From Nitrosomonas sp. (GTDB lineage Bacteria > Pseudomonadota > Gammaproteobacteria > Burkholderiales > Nitrosomonadaceae): DNA of 64,000 nucleotides. Of this stretch, positions 2,537 through 42,614 are shown in pieces (the first letter of the stretch is position 1; every line of letters starts with the position of its first letter). The stretch lies in contig JAIETK010000022.1 in NCBI GenBank assembly GCA_019745325.1, positions 90,246 through 154,245 of the forward strand, read 5' to 3'. The translations under genes and the position numbers were made by a program. The notes under the pieces are model-generated. The model did not search any database. It was given only the letters and a program-made list of their open reading frames with translations, and was not told the origin of the DNA.

Positions 2537-4222
2537 TTACGGTTGATAACTATCCAGCGTTCTGAGATTTTTAGTAATGCTGCCATTTTCCAATACGATG
2601 ATCCGGTCAATTTTTTTGAGCTGCTGCGGAATTTGCTGGCTGAAGATCAACGTGGTGCGATTCTCCATCAAGTTTTCCAGAACTGACAGCAATTCGCCGG
2701 GATCGCAACCGGTCAATGCGAATACTTCATCCAAGATCAAGATCGGGGTGTTTTTGACGAATGCGCGGGCGATGCTGAGTTGCAGCAATTGCTGTGGCGT
2801 TATTTCGTTTGTTTCCAGAGTCACTTGCGTTTGCAAACCGGCGGGCAAATGACGGATGAACTCCACCGCTCGTGAAGCCTGGGCGGCGGCGGTAATGGCA
2901 GCTTCGTTACTGCAGCGCTTCGCGCCGTACGCGATGTTGCCGGCGACTTTGTCGTCCAATAAAAAAGTGTCCGGGGAAACCATCGCAATATTGGCATGCA
3001 GGCTATCGAGTCTGATTTGCTCCAACGGATGGTCGTCCAGCCAGATTTTCCCGCTGACGGGCTGTTGCAGGCGAAGTATCAGATCAATCAATGCGGTTTT
3101 TTCTCCGGTGGAATAACCTTTAAAAACAACGATATTTCCTGGTTCAATGGTAAAGTTAATGTGATTCAGGCTGGATCCGGACTCTGCTTTATCGTCATAG
3201 CAAATTTTTTCGAATTGCAATTTTCCGTGAAACCGGGGAATGTCCAAAGTACCGGTATCGGTTTCAAGCGGTTGATCCAGAAACGCAAAAATGGTTTCTA
3301 ACGGTTCCCGGTGATGCTCCAGTTTTTTGGGTATTTTTAAAATGCGCCGGACCGGTGCCACCAGCAGAAGCGTGGCGGTAACAAGCGCTCCGGTCTGCGG
3401 CAAGCTCAGGGCGCCATTAATGGCTTGAAACCCCACAGCATAACCGGCGGCTACGAGAATCAGCACCGCGATTGTTTGCGAGAACAAAGTTGCCATCGCG
3501 TTTCGTTTTGTTTGCCGCATTTCTTCCAGTTGAATCGTTCCGGAAATCTTTTCCAGACGTTCACTTTCTTGCGCGATGCCGCCATCCAGCCGGATTGTTC
3601 GATGATGTCCGATTGCTTGGGATAAATGTTGCAGTAAGCCGGCGATTGCGGATAAGTTTTGTTGATCGGACCGGCCGGAATCATCAGCCAGCCGGTAAAT
3701 TAATGCAAGGAGCGGTGCGATCAGCACCAGCAGCATCGCAAAATCCTGATTAAGATACAACGTGCATAACACTAAGACGGCCATTATCAGGCAATCTTGC
3801 AGCAATTGCGCGAAAAGGAGAGCCGTGCTCGGGGAAACTTGATGAATGCAGGCGATCAGCTGATCAGCCCGATGGTTCATGGGTAATGATAAACCCTGGT
3901 TGATAGGCAATGCGAGCAACTTATTGATAACATCCAGCCGTAAATCCTGTGTCAGGAGACTGCTGGTCTTGCCAATCGAGAGGCGTTTGATATAAACAGC
4001 CGCAGCGTGGATCGTGAACAGCAGGATCATCATTACGGCTGCCGACTGCAGAATCGCGTGGTTTCCGGTGATGAAAATGCTATCCAGCAATTGATAAAGT
4101 AGAAGCGGAAAGGCGGCGATGGCCGCGGCCGCCAGCAACATCGAACCTGCTGTCAGCAAGTGTAATTTTCGATACGGCGTGAGTTTGGTGAATAGGCGGA
4201 GATAAAGTCGCATGCGGATCAT
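2537..4222 (-). CDS. MsbA-like ABC exporter with degenerate ATPase motifs
   Basis: A 561-residue fused permease/ATPase with the layout of type IV ABC exporters such as MsbA: six transmembrane helices in about residues 20-290 and a nucleotide-binding domain from about 330. The fold is recognisable but the ATPase motifs are eroded. Walker A reads GYSTGEKT (369-376), with Glu where the invariant Gly before Lys should be. The Q-loop Gln is Pro (VSPD, near 415-418). The LSGGQ signature is ITPQQ (474-478). The H-loop His is replaced (FSQQ, near 527-530). Walker B and the catalytic Glu are intact (LILDE, 495-499). The frame is open and full length. It may be a transporter with weak or no ATP hydrolysis, or a gene starting to decay. 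The neighbourhood suggests a polysaccharide or lipid substrate, but none can be named. Confidence 0.85.
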   Translation of the reverse strand: MIRMRLYLRLFTKLTPYRKLHLLTAGSMLLAAAAIAAFPLLLYQLLDSIFITGNHAILQSAAVMMILLFTIHAAAVYIKRLSIGKTSSLLTQDLRLDVINKLLALPINQGLSLPMNHRADQLIACIHQVSPSTALLFAQLLQDCLIMAVLVLCTLYLNQDFAMLLVLIAPLLALIYRLADDSGRSDQQNLSAIAGLLQHLSQAIGHHRTIRLDGGIAQESERLEKISGTIQLEEMRQTKRNAMATLFSQTIAVLILVAAGYAVGFQAINGALSLPQTGALVTATLLLVAPVRRILKIPKKLEHHREPLETIFAFLDQPLETDTGTLDIPRFHGKLQFEKICYDDKAESGSSLNHINFTIEPGNIVVFKGYSTGEKTALIDLILRLQQPVSGKIWLDDHPLEQIRLDSLHANIAMVSPDTFLLDDKVAGNIAYGAKRCSNEAAITAAAQASRAVEFIRHLPAGLQTQVTLETNEITPQQLLQLSIARAFVKNTPILILDEVFALTGCDPGELLSVLENLMENRTTLIFSQQIPQQLKKIDRIIVLENGSITKNLRTLDSYQP

Positions 4223-36893: not shown

Positions 36894-36964
36894 TTAGGGA
36901 AGCGCTGATTAATCCGGTGAACGAAGTGATTCGTTCGTGCAGTCGGTTAATGAATGTTTCCTCA
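36894..36964. repeat. MITE-like dispersed repeat, copy 3 (internal deletion)
   Basis: A 71-bp shortened form of the same element. The left end TTAGGGAAGCGCTGATTAAT is almost identical to copy 2, and the right part retains CGAAGTGATTCGTTCGTGCAGTC and a decayed end. About 80 internal bases are missing, joined at a GAACGA sequence that is present in both flanking parts of the full copies. It lies between the dGTPase gene and hemE. Confidence 0.8.
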
Positions 36965-37016
36965 GGTATTTGCAAGATTGCAGCCTTTTATAACAACTAT
37001 AAGCATAGGCTTTGGA

Positions 37017-38090
37017 ATGACAACACTTAAAAACGACACATTGCTTCGCGCATTGCTGAAGCAGCCAATAGAATACACACCGGTTTGGTTGATGCGGCAG
37101 GCAGGAAGATATCTTGCGGAATATAATGAAACGCGTGCGCGGGCGGGGGATTTTCTGTCGCTCTGTAAAAATCCGGGATTTGCAACCGAAGTGACCATGC
37201 AACCCCTCGCGCGTTTTCCGCTGGATGCCGCGATACTGTTTTCCGATATTTTGACGATCCCGGATGCGATGGGATTGGGGTTGTATTTCTCCCAGGGCGA
37301 AGGTCCCATGTTCAAACATCCGTTGCGGGAAGAAGCGGAAATCCGGGCATTGAAGGTGCCCGATCCGGGAGCGGAGTTGCGCTACGTGATGGACGCCGTG
37401 TCGGAAATCAGAAAAGCTTTGGACAATCGTGTTCCGCTGATCGGTTTTTCCGGCAGTCCTTTCACGCTGGCTTGCTACATGGTGGAAGGCCGCGGCGGCA
37501 CCGAGTTCCGGGAAATCAAGACCATGCTGTATTCACGTCCGGAGCTGTTGCATCACATCCTGGACGTCAATGCGAAAGCGGTGACGGCTTATTTGAATGC
37601 GCAGATCGAATCGGGCGCGCAAGCCGTCATGATATTTGATACCTGGGGCGGCGTGCTGTCGCATGCAGCGTACCGGGAATTCTCCTTGCGCTATATCCGT
37701 CAGATTGTTGCCGGATTGAAGCGGGAGCAGGATGGTTCGCGCATACCCAGCATAGTTTTTACCAAAGGCGGCGGGTTGTGGCTGGAAGCGATTGCAGATA
37801 TCGGATGCGACGCCGTCGGGCTGGATTGGACCATCGATATCGGAGAAGCGCGCCGCCGTGTCGGTGATAAAGTGGCATTGCAGGGAAATCTCGATCCGTC
37901 CGTGCTGTTTGCCACGCCTGAAGTCATTGCCGCGGAGGTGGAAAAAATTCTGATGAGCTATGGTAATGGGAGCGGGCATGTCTTTAATCTCGGTCACGGT
38001 ATTTCGCAATTTACGCCACCGGAGAATGCCGCGGCGTTAGTCAATGCGGTACATACCTTGAGCCGCAGGTTCCATGCCGGAGGTGCTTAA
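37017..38090 (+). CDS. hemE: uroporphyrinogen decarboxylase
   Basis: A 357-residue heme-pathway enzyme that converts uroporphyrinogen III to coproporphyrinogen III in the cytoplasm. The N-terminal [22 protein letters not shown], the [15 protein letters not shown] block with the catalytic Asp, and [16 protein letters not shown] are diagnostic. I start at the ATG at 37017; an in-frame start at 36954 lies in the end of the repeat and would add 21 unrelated residues. Nitrosomonas needs large amounts of heme c for hydroxylamine oxidation, so an active heme pathway is expected. Confidence 0.96.
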
Positions 38091-38121: not shown

Positions 38122-38811
38122 ATGCATATATTAATTATTGAAGATGATCTGGCGATTGCTGCCAATCTATATGACTTTCTGGAATCAAGGGGGCATACGG
38201 TCGATGCTGCAGTGAATGGTGTTGCTGGTCTCCATCTGGCGGTTACGCAACGGTTTGATGCAATTTTGCTCGACTTGGGTTTGCCTGGAATGAACGGCAT
38301 GACGCTATGCCGTAAACTCAGGCAGGAATCACAAATCGACACACCCATTTTGATGCTGACTGCGCGCGATACGCTCGAAGATAAGCTGGCGGGTTTTGAA
38401 CAGGGAGCCGACGATTATCTGATCAAGCCTTTTGCGTTGAAAGAAGTGGAAGCGCGTTTATTGGCATTGCATAAGCGGCATGCTGGAAAAGTAGCCAATC
38501 GCACGCTGGAGTTTGACAAGCTCTCTTTCGATCCGAAGACGCTGTCGATTCGCTTTGAGAACAAGAACGTCAAACTTCCTCCCAAGTGTATCCGCTTATT
38601 GGCCCTGATGATGAGCGAACCGGGCCGGGTTTTCAGCCGCGAGGAACTGGAACTGGAGGCCTGGGAAGATGTTCAAGAAACCAGTGACACACTGCGTAGC
38701 CATATGCACATACTGCGGCGGGCATTGACCAAAGCGGGCGGATACGATCCGATAGAAACCGTGCATGGTCTCGGTTATTGTTTGACATCGCGTGTTCAGA
38801 TTCCCGAATGA
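38122..38811 (+). CDS. OmpR/PhoB-family response regulator
   Basis: A 229-residue regulator with an N-terminal receiver domain (acidic pair EDD at 8-9, phospho-acceptor D51 in LLDLGLPG, Thr in LMLTARD and Lys in LIKPFAL) and a C-terminal winged-helix DNA-binding domain (VFSREELELEAW...SDTLRSHMHILRRAL...ETVHGLGYCL). The ATG at 38122 follows AGG by seven bases. The next gene, its sensor kinase, overlaps it by 20 bases, so the pair is coupled. The target is not known from sequence; the sbtA gene with tandem half-sites in front lies immediately downstream. Confidence 0.95.
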   Translation: MHILIIEDDLAIAANLYDFLESRGHTVDAAVNGVAGLHLAVTQRFDAILLDLGLPGMNGMTLCRKLRQESQIDTPILMLTARDTLEDKLAGFEQGADDYLIKPFALKEVEARLLALHKRHAGKVANRTLEFDKLSFDPKTLSIRFENKNVKLPPKCIRLLALMMSEPGRVFSREELELEAWEDVQETSDTLRSHMHILRRALTKAGGYDPIETVHGLGYCLTSRVQIPE

Positions 38812-40066
38812 AAATAGTCTGCGCTACCGGGTTGCCGTAGCGCTGACAACTTTTAGCGTTTTTATCGTTGGAACGCTTTGTATTATTCTTTACTTTGTCT
38901 CGGATAATATCGAGGAAGAACATATTGAGCAGGTGATCGAGATGGAAATGGATCATCTTGTTCAGCGCTATAAAAAGCACTCCGATTTTATCTACCAAGT
39001 CGGTTTGCATCTTAAAAGTTATGTTATTCATAACATCGATGACGAGCTGCAGATTCCAACTTATTTGCGCGGTTTGAATGCGGGATATCATCGGATTTAC
39101 TATGGGCTGGAAGATTTTCACGTATTGGTGCGCACCGACCAGGGAGTGAAATTTCTTGTTGCCTACCGGATTGCGTTGCATCAGCAACGGTTAAGTAAGT
39201 TAAGAGTGATTATCTTATTTTCCTGGTTTGCGGTGGTTGCCATCGCTTTTGTCGTCGGGTACTTACTCGCCGGTGTGCTGGTCAAGCAAGTAACGGATCT
39301 GGCGGATCGTGTCAGTTCACTGGCAACAGAGGGTGATCAAACAGGCTTATTGACGCAACCGGATATGGACGAGGAAGTTGCGCAATTGGCGCAAGCCTTG
39401 GATGATTACCAAATCCGCATTAAACGGATGTTGCAGCGCGAGCAAGAGTTTACCGCCAATATCAGCCACGAATTACGGACGCCGATTACTACCATTCTTA
39501 CCAGTTGCGAGTTGCTGGTTGCTTCTGTTGATATACCGGCGCGAGCGCAACACCGGATAAAAATGATCGAAAGCGCGGCGACGCGCATGGGCGAGCAATT
39601 GCAAGCCTTGCTGTTCTTGGCGCGGGAGCAAGCGCTGGGCGCGACCGAGCCGATTGCGATTGCTGAATGCGTTTTCGATGCAGTTGAGCCGATCTGTACC
39701 GAAATTTACCGCAAAGGACTGGATTTCGAAGTCAATATCGCACCGTCTGTGACGATAGTACTGAACCGCCAAGCCTTGCATACCGCTCTGATGAACTTGC
39801 TGCGCAACGCAGTACAGTACACCGAGAGTGGTTTTATTCGTGTCGATTACAATAATCGCCGCTTATCCGTTACCGACTCAGGTATCGGCATTGAACCGGC
39901 CTATCTGCCCTTACTGTATGAGCGTTTCTTTCGCGGCTCTGAGCAAGGCGAGGGCCTAGGAATCGGCTTGGCAATCGTCAAACGAATCTGCAATCACTAC
40001 GGTTGGCGTATCGAAGTCGACAGCACCCCGGGCAAGGGTACGACTTTTCACATTATTTTCCCTTAA
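38792..40066 (+). CDS. two-component sensor histidine kinase
   Basis: A 424-residue membrane kinase with a transmembrane helix near 13-36, a periplasmic sensor of about 100 residues, a second helix near 137-162, a HAMP-like linker, and the kinase core. The phosphorylated His is H226 in ISHELRTPI. N-box LLRNAVQYT, G1 DSGIGIE and G2 GLGIGLAIVK are intact. The start is a GTG inside the response regulator gene; an ATG at 38808 is out of frame. The periplasmic domain has no family I can name, so the signal is unknown. Confidence 0.94.
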   Translation: MFRFPNENSLRYRVAVALTTFSVFIVGTLCIILYFVSDNIEEEHIEQVIEMEMDHLVQRYKKHSDFIYQVGLHLKSYVIHNIDDELQIPTYLRGLNAGYHRIYYGLEDFHVLVRTDQGVKFLVAYRIALHQQRLSKLRVIILFSWFAVVAIAFVVGYLLAGVLVKQVTDLADRVSSLATEGDQTGLLTQPDMDEEVAQLAQALDDYQIRIKRMLQREQEFTANISHELRTPITTILTSCELLVASVDIPARAQHRIKMIESAATRMGEQLQALLFLAREQALGATEPIAIAECVFDAVEPICTEIYRKGLDFEVNIAPSVTIVLNRQALHTALMNLLRNAVQYTESGFIRVDYNNRRLSVTDSGIGIEPAYLPLLYERFFRGSEQGEGLGIGLAIVKRICNHYGWRIEVDSTPGKGTTFHIIFP

Positions 40067-40091
40067 TTTTTGAAGAAAGACACATCGTTCT

Positions 40092-40128
40092 CTTCACGAA
40101 TTCTTCACGTTTCCTGTGTTAACGTTTC
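40092..40128 (+). promoter_or_regulatory. candidate response-regulator binding site upstream of sbtA
   Basis: CTTCACG occurs at 40092-40098 and again at 40103-40109, an exact 11-bp period, which is the half-site spacing used by OmpR/PhoB-type regulators. A related sequence in the opposite orientation (CCGTGTGAAG, 40119-40128) follows. The site is between the histidine kinase gene and sbtA; a possible -10 (TATAAG, 40163-40168) lies downstream. Recognition by the adjacent regulator is inferred. Confidence 0.5.
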
Positions 40129-40223
40129 CGTGTGAAGGGTAATTCAGTCACGGGTTTCCAGGTATAAGACAGAGTGTTTTTCGTCGCCTGATTTAACTAG
40201 GTAGTCACGTCTCGTAGAATCTT

Positions 40224-40240
40224 GATTCAAGAATTGAATC
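40224..40240. promoter_or_regulatory. perfect palindrome in the sbtA leader
   Basis: GATTCAA-GAA-TTGAATC is a perfect 7-bp inverted repeat with a 3-base centre, directly before a terminator-like hairpin. It could be a protein operator or an RNA hairpin competing with the next one. Confidence 0.4.
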
Positions 40241-40241
40241 T

Positions 40242-40274
40242 CTCCCTCAATCAGAGGGGGGCGTTTTTCTTTTT
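40242..40274 (+). terminator. terminator-like hairpin upstream of sbtA
   Basis: CTCCCTC (40242-40248) pairs with GAGGGGG (from 40254) around AATCA, with one G-T pair, and is followed by GTTTTTCTTTTT. It may end the two-component transcript, or act as an attenuator if the sbtA promoter is upstream of it. Confidence 0.6.
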
Positions 40275-40364
40275 GCTTCGATTTCATCGAGACTCTGGAA
40301 GATACTGGAGTGAAAAATATTAATAAAACGGAATGGATATAACTATTAAAATAAGGAGTGTTGC

Positions 40365-41321
40365 ATGGCTACTATACAACCAGTAGTGTTCTTTTTTGTT
40401 GCTGGGGTTCTGGCGGGCGTGATCAAGTCTGACCTGAAAATACCCGAAGCTTTGTACAAGAGTATGAGCTTGTTCTTGCTGATTGCCATTGGTTTCAAAG
40501 GCGGTGTGTCAATGGCGAAGTATGAAATCATGGAAGTATTACCAATTGCAGTTTCCATGGTGGTTTTATCGGCTTTGGTTCCATTAACCGCTTATCCGAT
40601 TTTAAGATTCGTCGGTAAATTCACCCAGGCTGATGCTGGCGCCATTTCCGCGCACTATGGCTCGGTCAGCGCGGTGACCTTTGCCGTGGGTGTGGCTTTC
40701 CTAGCGGCCAAGGATGAGCCTTCTGAAGGGTATATGGTCTTGATTATGGCGCTGATGGAAATACCCGCGTTGGTAACTGGTACAGTCCTGGCGCGCGCCG
40801 GTGCTGGCGGTGAAAAAACCCAATGGGGCAAGCTGATGCACGAGATTTTGACCGGTACCAGTCTTTATCTGTTAATTGTGGGCGTTCTCATCGGGTACTA
40901 TGCAGGGGTAGTAAAACTGGTATCGCCATTGGATAAAATGTTCATGGACTTGTTCATGGGCGTATTGGCATTCTTCCTGCTGGAAATGGGATTACTGGCA
41001 TCGGCGCGGTTGAAGGCGGTTATGGCAAAAGGTGTTTTTATTGTGTCGTTCGGGATTTTGTTCCCGTTGATGGCTGGAATGTTTGGCGCTTATTTGGGCT
41101 GGATCTTCGGTCTGACTGAGGGCGGCACCATGCTGTTGGCGGTCTTGTATGCCAGCTGTTCATATATTGCTGCACCGGCAGCTATGCGCATTGCAGTGCC
41201 GGATGCCGATCCCGCGGTTTCAATCGGTGCATCGCTGGGTGTAACGTTCCCTTTTAATATCTTTATCGGGGTACCGATTTACTGGGAAATGGCGCACTGG
41301 TTCCATGGCATGGCAGTATAA
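40365..41321 (+). CDS. sbtA: sodium-dependent bicarbonate permease SbtA
   Basis: A 318-residue inner-membrane transporter with about ten helices in two inverted halves. FFFVAGVLAGVIKSDLKIPE at the start, FKGGVSMAK, GAISAHYGSVSAVTFAVG and the C-terminal SYIAAPAAMRIAVP...SIGASLGVTFPFN are the hallmarks of SbtA, including the substrate-site serines of the GSVSA and S-x-G-A-S type segments. It imports bicarbonate with sodium and feeds autotrophic CO2 fixation. The start has a good AAGGAG site. The PII-like regulator gene sbtB follows after 38 bases. Confidence 0.93.
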   Translation: MATIQPVVFFFVAGVLAGVIKSDLKIPEALYKSMSLFLLIAIGFKGGVSMAKYEIMEVLPIAVSMVVLSALVPLTAYPILRFVGKFTQADAGAISAHYGSVSAVTFAVGVAFLAAKDEPSEGYMVLIMALMEIPALVTGTVLARAGAGGEKTQWGKLMHEILTGTSLYLLIVGVLIGYYAGVVKLVSPLDKMFMDLFMGVLAFFLLEMGLLASARLKAVMAKGVFIVSFGILFPLMAGMFGAYLGWIFGLTEGGTMLLAVLYASCSYIAAPAAMRIAVPDADPAVSIGASLGVTFPFNIFIGVPIYWEMAHWFHGMAV

Positions 41322-41359
41322 TAAAGTACTTAATTAACCGGACAATTAATGGGGAAAAT

Positions 41360-41677
41360 ATGAATAATACGATTGCTATGAGACGATTTGAAATCGTTAT
41401 CGGTATTGAGCAGCTTGAGCAACTGACGGATATATTGGAAAAATGTGAAGTACGTGGCTATACGGTACTTAAAAATGCAGGCGGTTTGGGATCGCGCGGT
41501 GTGCGTGATCCGGATGATGTACTGATGGAACAAGAGAACGTGATGGTTGTGCTTGCTTGCAAAGATGATCAGGCACAGAGAATTGTCAACGAAGTGCGGC
41601 CGGTATTGAAAAAATTGGGTGGTATGTGCCTGATTTCGGATTGTCTGTGGCTTGAGGGACCGGCAGTCTCTTATTAA
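41360..41677 (+). CDS. sbtB: PII-like regulator SbtB
   Basis: A 105-residue small trimeric PII-like protein. RFEIVIGIEQLEQLTDILEK and GYTVLKNAGGLGSRG (the T-loop region) and VLACKDDQAQRIVNEVRPVLKKLGG resemble SbtB. In cyanobacteria SbtB binds adenine nucleotides including cAMP and gates SbtA. Its position directly downstream of sbtA and before a strong terminator supports a two-gene unit. The C-terminus ends in LEGPAVSY without the two-Cys redox motif found in some cyanobacterial members; the two Cys it has (MCLISDCLW) are internal. Confidence 0.88.
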   Translation: MNNTIAMRRFEIVIGIEQLEQLTDILEKCEVRGYTVLKNAGGLGSRGVRDPDDVLMEQENVMVVLACKDDQAQRIVNEVRPVLKKLGGMCLISDCLWLEGPAVSY

Positions 41678-41707
41678 ACGGTTCTTGTTGTTGTTTCGTT
41701 TTATCCA

Positions 41708-41750
41708 GCAAAACGCGCAATAGGTTTCTATTGCGCGTTTTGCTTTATCG
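41708..41750. terminator. terminator after sbtAB
   Basis: GCAAAACGCGCAATAG and CTATTGCGCGTTTTGC form a perfect 16-bp stem with the loop GTTT. The lower part of the stem plus following bases gives TTTTGCTTT after the GC-rich CTATTGCGCG, so it should terminate sbtAB transcription. Confidence 0.85.
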
Positions 41751-41810
41751 CAAACGGTTTAGCCGATTGCCGGGAAATCCAAAAATCCGGCTTTGTTATT
41801 CAAGTTACCT

Positions 41811-42614
41811 ATGCATGCCATGCAAAAAACTACACCGCTGCTATTACAGGTTATCCGGGTAATTAAATTGCTGTTTCATGTCATATCCGGTGTATTGCAA
41901 TCGCTGGTGTATCCCTACTTTCCTCAGCACATCCGGCGATCGATGATGCAGCGATGGGCAACAGGCGTGCTGGCCTGTCTTGAAATCCGGTTGCAATGTT
42001 GCGGGAGCGTGCCGGTAGCGCAAGTGCAGCGGGTGCTGCTGGCGGCCAATCATGTTTCCTGGCTGGATGTGTGCGTGCTGATGGCTGCCTGCCCGACTCG
42101 TTTTGTCGCCAAAGCGGAGATCAGCCAATGGCCGGTTTTGGGGTTGCTAAGCCGGAATGTCGGCACGCTGTTTATCGAGCGTGCAAAACGCAGCGATACG
42201 CAGCGTATCAATCAGCAGATTGCAGAGGCGTTGGAGAATGGCGAAGTGGTGACGGTGTTTCCGGAAGGCACGACAACCGACGGCTTCCAGCTAAACCATT
42301 TTCATGCTTCTTTACTGCAATCGGCAGTCAATGCGGATGCCTTGCTTTATCCAGTGGCGATCCGGTATCGCAACGTTGCCGGCGGGATTTGCAGGGAAGC
42401 GGCGTATATCGATTCATCGCTGATTGTGTCGCTGCAGAACATACTCAGCCAGCCGCGGATTGAAGCGGCATTAACTTTCACGCCTCCAGTTCCAAGCGGT
42501 TTGAGAAATCGCCGGGAATTGGCACGCCTGGCCGAGCATGCGATTGCGGAAGTCTTGGCGGTGCCTATTGTCCACAAGGAATCTGGAAAATTTTCCGGTC
42601 TTCCAAGCGAATAG
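41811..42614 (+). CDS. plsC: 1-acyl-sn-glycerol-3-phosphate acyltransferase
   Basis: A 267-residue membrane acyltransferase that makes phosphatidic acid. An N-terminal amphipathic/hydrophobic segment precedes the catalytic NHVSWLD (the H(X)4D motif), then IERAKRSD and the substrate motif FPEGTTTDG. The start is uncertain: ATGs at 41811 and 41820 and a TTG at 41793 are all in frame and none has a good ribosome site. The 3' end overlaps the convergent apaH gene by 50 bases, which is unusual but both frames are well supported. Confidence 0.9.
   Translation: MHAMQKTTPLLLQVIRVIKLLFHVISGVLQSLVYPYFPQHIRRSMMQRWATGVLACLEIRLQCCGSVPVAQVQRVLLAANHVSWLDVCVLMAACPTRFVAKAEISQWPVLGLLSRNVGTLFIERAKRSDTQRINQQIAEALENGEVVTVFPEGTTTDGFQLNHFHASLLQSAVNADALLYPVAIRYRNVAGGICREAAYIDSSLIVSLQNILSQPRIEAALTFTPPVPSGLRNRRELARLAEHAIAEVLAVPIVHKESGKFSGLPSE

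Follow-up and report, generated by a model that had tools for sequence, protein, structure and literature searches.

The regulator-kinase locus and its box

The stretch of Nitrosomonas sp. DNA analysed here (64,000 nucleotides of contig JAIETK010000022.1, hereafter the window, always at its full length) carries on its forward strand the genes for a two-component regulatory pair, directly followed by those for a bicarbonate transporter of the SbtA family and its PII-like partner, SbtB. Between the two gene pairs lies a short repeated element that we refer to as the box. The response regulator (38122..38811) is a 229-residue protein of the OmpR/PhoB type in which Response_reg (95 bits) and Trans_reg_C (64 bits) were detected, and D51 is presumably its phospho-acceptor. 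The sensor histidine kinase (38792..40066), with HisKA and HATPase_c domains, starts from a GTG codon at 38792, its reading frame overlapping the end of the regulator gene at 38811. The sbtA gene (40365..41321; Pfam Sbt_1, 357.8 bits against a cut-off of 27) belongs to the family of Na+-dependent bicarbonate transporters, from which its product is predicted to be a bicarbonate transporter with putative Na+-dependent transport, and it is followed by sbtB (41360..41677; P-II, 47.3 bits against a cut-off of 25). The first-pass annotation had placed an OmpR/PhoB-type regulator and its kinase directly upstream of sbtA-sbtB, and the genes at 38122-41677 and their domain scores agree with it: the regulator joins a receiver to a winged-helix output domain and a HisKA/HATPase kinase is adjacent, which is the architecture of an OmpR/PhoB two-component system. 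It had also expected a control unlike that exerted by the LysR-type proteins CcmR and CmpR, and this was borne out in that the domain search of the window regulator gave only Response_reg and Trans_reg_C and no LysR-type domain.

The box begins 25 nt past the kinase stop and about 260 bp ahead of sbtA. As had been noticed earlier, CTTCACG occurs there twice on the forward strand with 11-bp spacing from start to start, the distal half-site at 40092..40098 and the proximal half-site at 40103..40109, with AATT between them; 5 nt past the proximal half-site lies TGTGTTAA, a conserved −10-like element (40115..40122). Direct half-sites in tandem, with a spacing of about 11 bp, are what an OmpR/PhoB-type regulator is expected to have at its target. 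By itself, CTTCACG is not enriched in the window (10 observed, 7.5 expected), so that the half-site pair alone is weak evidence and the case rests on comparison. The sequence TTCACGNNNTCTTCAC occurs once in the window genome, and a simple promoter scan called no promoter at the box. The repeat TTCAC-N6-TTCAC alone matched 11 times in the window genome and its control 4 times, and we claim no wider regulon; besides the window's own site, three of those read lie inside reading frames and the rest beside genes with no recognised role in the handling of dissolved inorganic carbon (DIC).

For the comparison, a strict box was defined by the pattern TTCACNNNNTNTTCACN{5,7}TRTGNTAA, and the reversed pattern served as a control. 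Among the 125 Nitrosomonadaceae genomes of the family set, the strict box gave 77 matches in 73 genomes, and the control gave none; no match was found in 368 other genomes of the class (one of which, G006, is of the same genus), the window's own being the only one among the 369. Orthologs of the regulator, accepted at E ≤ 1e-75, are present in 104 of the 125 family genomes. Cross-tabulation of regulator and strict box over the 125, uncorrected for kinship, gave 72 genomes with both, 32 with the regulator only, 1 with the box only and 20 with neither; one ortholog-negative genome missing from the ortholog listing was taken as G148 in this table. In the genus subset (37 genomes, G000-G036), the regulator is found at 74% identity or more in 30 and SbtA at 70% or more in 19. 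As judged by eye from coordinates, 65 of the 77 strict boxes lie directly after the kinase gene and 12 elsewhere. A search for conserved synteny and half-sites in relatives had been proposed as a check; when this was done, the half-sites proved to be conserved, with a single box in 69 of the 73 box-positive genomes and two boxes in the other 4.

Across transporter contexts, the box recurs in the form TTCACGAATTCTTCACA-N5-TRTGTTAA. Positions that the pattern left free are also conserved among the 47 distinct 30-base strict boxes (G6 in 41, A7 in 38, A8 in 37, T9 in 42, C11 in 34 and A17 in 40). In an alignment of 16 gaps between kinase and sbtA, those of the window and of 15 of the 40 SbtA loci described below, the list of invariant columns identifies the box as the densest conserved block besides the sbtA start region. 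A third half-site at 11 bp is present in L183, L232 and L215. At another locus, L315 of genome G076, the entire half-site pair is tandemly duplicated before dabA-dabB (reverse strand, around 3442-3489).

Exchange of transporters behind the pair

Upstream of the regulator-kinase pair, the window carries hemE (uroporphyrinogen decarboxylase; 36954..38090, forward strand), and the same gene precedes the pair in the majority of those family loci that were read and extend far enough. In the loci that were read first, the order hemE-regulator-kinase was constant, and the genes that came next were sbtA-sbtB, SulP with a universal stress protein (USP), dabA-dabB, or a distant sbtA-sbtB. The identities of the exchanged genes were confirmed as SulP (PF00916) and DabA (PF10070, 662 bits), the latter with a NuoM-like partner. 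Among titled relatives, those closest to the regulator are from Nitrosomonas (99% identity in L154). We then took as a sample the best 80 titled loci of the 412 relatives found, of which 6 end too soon and 74 were judged. As the transporter we took whichever recognised module came first in the 2.5 kb that follow the kinase, a rule that covers the query families only and can miss small intervening genes. A DIC transporter lies behind the pair in 61 of the 74 loci: SbtA in 40, SulP in 9, DabA in 9 and a second SbtA type (SbtA2) in 3. By species, sbtA follows the pair in Nitrosomonas ureae and N. oligotropha, and dabA in Nitrosospira multiformis. The 13 loci that have none comprise 8 from the N. 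marina group, 2 from Nitrosospira with a CsoSCA-like gene and 3 from outside the family. On a quick tree of regulator plus kinase, the transporter type changed at least 10 times, or 8 times when both SbtA types are merged and 14 when the lack of a transporter is counted as a type. Among the loci read first, SbtB follows SbtA in 15 of the 16 that have the window-type SbtA behind the pair, and the sixteenth (L063) ends inside sbtA.

The region between kinase and transporter was scored for the box on a scale with a maximum of 26, a score of 21 or more (one position being free) counting as a full box. Fifty-two of the 61 loci reach this score. The remaining nine (L204, L211-L213, L216-L219 and L226) score 18-19 and carry variants. 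TTCACA stands ahead of an intact TRTGNTAA in L211, L212, L213, L216, L217 and L219, and ahead of an altered one in L218 and L226; upstream of the proximal copy, at distances of 22 and 33 bp, L212, L213, L216-L219 and L226 have further TCAC copies. In L204, two copies of TCAC are spaced by 11 bp, with no −10-like element resembling TRTGNTAA.

Three side observations concern the genes behind such pairs. The CsoSCA_cat-like genes of the two Nitrosospira loci lie directly behind the pair (L202, 9036-10154, found by search; L206, 9196-10314, by eye) and are preceded by imperfect boxes that score 20 and 23 of 26. In L226, a small open reading frame (ORF) resembling a beta-carbonic anhydrase was seen by eye between the box and the second-type sbtA. 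In G026 and G010 (L093, 3496-5449; L094), a third SbtA type adjoins PmrA-like, paralogous two-component pairs, and DIC pumps and PmrA-like pairs may have been joined more than once.

All 12 strict boxes away from the pair were fetched, and 11 of them lie within about 230 bp before SulP or Dab clusters. Eight precede SulP-USP-NuoM-DabA (G002, G010, G026, G074, G075, G086, G088 and G094; the SulP frame of G074 contains a stop), and three precede NuoM-DabA (G083, G101 and G112). The box therefore tracks the transporter and not only the locus. The first-pass annotation had staked its proposal against two outcomes, half-sites that are not conserved and a regulator that binds only elsewhere in the genome; as far as sequence can indicate, neither applies, for boxes precede several families of DIC transporter. 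The four unlinked SbtA2 paralogs that were scored (L092 and L096-L098, which include the second SbtA of the window genome) have no box, with scores of 16-17 of 26 that equal the background.

As a control, we examined 22 genomes of the genus, 11 regulator-negative and 11 of the 12 that are regulator-positive and strict-box-negative; the twelfth, G084, was left out, and its box (L157) fails the strict pattern by one base. At the cut-offs used, SulP was found in 6 of the 22 genomes and DabA in 9. Seven regulator-negative genomes (G004, G012, G017, G021, G071, G072 and G113) have neither at these cut-offs, three others (G073, G036 and G001) retain SulP or DabA2 with no box, and G010 has one SulP with a box and a second without. 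On the regulator-positive side, G076 has its tandem box before dabA, and G077 has a box of 22/26 before SbtA. G092, G091 and G108 were not judged, the upstream stretch being too short or not fetched.

A candidate system for inorganic carbon uptake and its alternatives

Ten loci outside the family, with regulators 65-77% identical to that of the window, made up a further set (L214 was assigned by tree and neighbourhood). None of the DIC query families was found beside these ten pairs, two of which (L225 and L227) are at loci that end early. Their neighbours, mostly identified by eye, are aat-bpt and pyrD and, in part, ArnT-like, LAB_N or PAP2 genes; those that were searched are LAB_N and an ArnT-like PMT gene at L285 and PAP2 at L287, where the models for ArnT and lipid A phosphatase scored below their cut-offs. 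TTCAC-N6-TTCAC is present within 200 bp of the pair edges at four of the ten loci (L214, L227, L231 and L287), compared with 0.003 sites expected from base composition. Because the repeat adjoins outside pairs that have no DIC genes, the half-site repeat appears to be tied to the regulator. The presumed recognition helix, QETSDTLRSHMH, is identical in four of seven aligned outside regulators and differs by one to three changes in the other three.

The kinase core is 46-59% identical to that of the window in 8 outside kinases and 67-91% in 31 family kinases, and the corresponding values for the sensor part (residues 36-135) are 17-36% and 43-95%. Two residues, H44 and K120, are shared by all of 32 family kinases and by none of the 8 outside kinases, which makes them candidates for a change in the signal. 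For the kinase, an AlphaFold model of low confidence (mean pLDDT 68) suggests two long helices, taken to be membrane helices, that flank a small alpha/beta region. The 50 Foldseek matches shown for the model aligned mainly as kinases and were uninformative on the sensor.

We consider it highly probable that the regulator and kinase form a two-component system dedicated to DIC uptake in Nitrosomonadaceae. The earlier claim that a membrane sensor controls bicarbonate uptake finds comparative support, with "bicarbonate" widened to DIC, since in relatives the pair is followed by SulP or the Dab complex. According to this reading, the kinase would detect a periplasmic or membrane signal tied to carbon supply and, as its domains suggest, phosphorylate the regulator. 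The regulator would then bind the two TTCAC half-sites, arranged head to tail at 11-bp spacing before the −10-like TRTGTTAA with which they are associated in the comparison, and would probably switch on the transporter behind the box. In the window genome, the target would be sbtA-sbtB, with SbtB adding a second layer of control at the protein level, and in relatives the pair and the box would serve SulP, Dab or another SbtA. As for its origin, we lean, with some reserve, towards a PmrAB-like envelope system that became, by rewiring in ammonia oxidisers, a DIC sensor with close to a single target, with a slot behind the kinase in which SbtA, SulP and Dab were repeatedly swapped and a box that stayed constant. 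The half-site preference of the PmrAB-like ancestor would have been kept, its sensor part changed and its target replaced.

Several observations weigh against this reading. Of the 104 regulator-positive genomes, 32 lack the strict box, 12 of them in the genus and 20 in two other genera, and some have near misses or variants that escape the pattern, such as L157, G035, L212 and L216-L219. No such explanation applies to others, among them G009 and G102, in which neither SulP nor DabA passed the cut-offs. G107 and G006 are regulator-positive and have SulP without a box, G006 having only a weak box (20/26) before SbtA, and the NuoM-DabA cluster of regulator-positive G103 is also without one (best score 18). 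Conversely, G010 has a box but no regulator ortholog at 1e-75, and its second SulP is boxless. At the eight N. marina group loci, no transporter accompanies the pair, and the scores next to it (15-16) do not rise above background. The off-pair box of G118, a copy of the kinase-dabA gap (80% over 179 bp), precedes a small unrelated gene and no DIC gene. Finally, the proximal half-site is so near the −10-like element that repression is possible.

One could therefore envision that the regulator represses, occupying the promoter spacer and leaving it under carbon limitation, as the distance of just about 5 nt between the proximal half-site and the −10-like element would allow. There is, however, no good −35 hexamer independent of the half-site, which makes activation likelier, and regulators of the OmpR/PhoB type mostly activate; we regard repression as a serious but unlikely alternative. 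In another scenario, the pair would be a PmrAB-like system for envelope or pH stress in general, and the DIC pumps would serve pH homeostasis and not carbon supply. PmrB senses mild acid and metals, and some outside relatives adjoin genes of the lipid A type, namely those at L285 and L287 with their sub-cut-off models. On the other hand, among the strict boxes with a next gene that was read, none precedes a lipid A type gene, all but that of G118 (itself without a lipid A gene) lying at DIC clusters, although the family genomes were not searched for lipid A genes; moreover, the sensor parts of the outside kinases are so much less similar to the window's than those within the family that the signal may differ. 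We find this scenario doubtful, to about the same degree as repression.

A third possibility, which we think improbable, is that the box is a conserved sigma-70-like promoter and nothing else, with TTCACG as −35, a 16-bp spacer and TRTGTT as −10, and that the regulator acts elsewhere. TTCACG matches four of six −35 consensus positions at a near ideal spacing, and the −10-like part is highly conserved, partly since the pattern fixed its letters. This does not account for the second half-site, which lies in the spacer and is equally conserved, for the third copies at 11 bp, for variants that retain TCAC at 11-bp steps across 33 bp, or for the repeat beside the pair outside the family, where the −10 motif is lacking. 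In addition, three regulator-negative genomes of the genus with SulP or DabA2 are boxless (G073, G036 and G001), against one with a box (G010). It is very improbable that common descent alone keeps the pair and the transporters side by side, with the box belonging to the locus and not to the transporter, for although the order hemE-regulator-kinase persists where no transporter follows, there were at least 8-10 changes of transporter type on the tree with the box retained, and 11 of the 12 off-pair strict boxes precede DIC clusters.

Known systems, the leader and other repeats

Among curated models, PmrA/BasR gave the best score for the window regulator, and BasR is among its best solved relatives; the score of 167.2 bits lies well below the equivalog cut-off of 330 bits (NCBIfam NF007928). 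The PmrA box consists of 11-bp direct half-sites of the sequence YTTAA. The window system shares this spacing and, in some outside relatives of the pair, the ArnT-like, LAB_N or PAP2 neighbours; it differs in its half-site, TTCAC, and in its targets, which are DIC transporters instead of lipid A modification. PhoB-PhoR is similar in the OmpR/PhoB architecture and in the layout of the box (7+4 bp), but the PhoB box is CTGTCATAAAT, so that both half-site and target differ, and the regulator reaches 164.9 bits where the PhoB equivalog (TIGR02154) requires 296.

In cyanobacteria, SbtA and other high-affinity DIC uptake genes are controlled by the LysR-type regulators NdhR/CcmR and CmpR, according to PMC4390856, and control of SbtA also involves CyAbrB2 (PMC4390856, PMC13421787). 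NdhR/CcmR and CmpR are one-component, metabolite-binding proteins, in contrast to the phosphorelay with a membrane kinase that is predicted here. SbtA, SulP and Dab all belong to the known DIC toolkit families of autotrophs, as set out in a review (PMC10880623) whose main text contains none of the words Nitrosomonas, Nitrosospira, two-component and regulator. Among the titles and abstracts listed from the open-licence literature, none reports that ammonia oxidisers control DIC uptake by a two-component system, which is no proof of absence. The parts are of known kinds; what appears to be new within the literature searched is their combination, together with the box and the pump exchange. In our judgement, the ways in which chemolithoautotrophs perceive their carbon supply and select an uptake system are little known, and with a defined pair, a defined 30-bp box and several interchangeable targets, the question can be put to a direct test in cultures of Nitrosomonas and Nitrosospira. 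If the reading is correct, DIC uptake would be under a phosphorelay that senses carbon supply at the membrane, unlike the metabolite-binding LysR proteins, and the repeated swapping of pump families behind one box would exemplify regulatory rewiring in a clean form.

Between the box and sbtA, two further features of the forward strand are located. The first is a leader stretch after the box (40132..40161), GTGAAGGG..GTCACGGGTTTCC (GTGAAGGGTAATTCAGTCACGGGTTTCC), which is retained with changes in the 16 aligned sbtA leaders, is absent from several shorter leaders, and contains an inverted half-site. The second is a terminator-like hairpin with a T-run (40241..40261), predicted at this position for ten aligned sequences with weak covariation and a consensus energy of −2.13 kcal/mol; on this weak evidence it is possibly an attenuator, the end of a small RNA, or nothing. 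An Rfam search of 39900-41900 gave a chance match only.

Half-site pairs were also encountered at other genes. One that lies upstream of a porin gene in G028 (L138, at G028:C1:1460626) was set aside, the −10-like part being absent. A second pair, in G118 (C10, L272), is near a gene that by eye belongs to apparently the same porin family, with the pair upstream of the gene in L138 and divergent in L272, which may be chance. The window genome itself has two triple TTCAC repeats in 11-bp steps with no −10-like motif (G000:C2:202212, L101, and G000:C7:75144, L105), each upstream of a small ORF on the opposite strand that resembles a membrane protein. Its second SbtA-SbtB (G000:C6:21917-22873, L092), which is boxless, adjoins by eye a divergent PAS-type kinase, and a FixJ-like regulator was seen, again by eye, after a PAS-type kinase beside the unlinked SbtA2 of L097 and L098.

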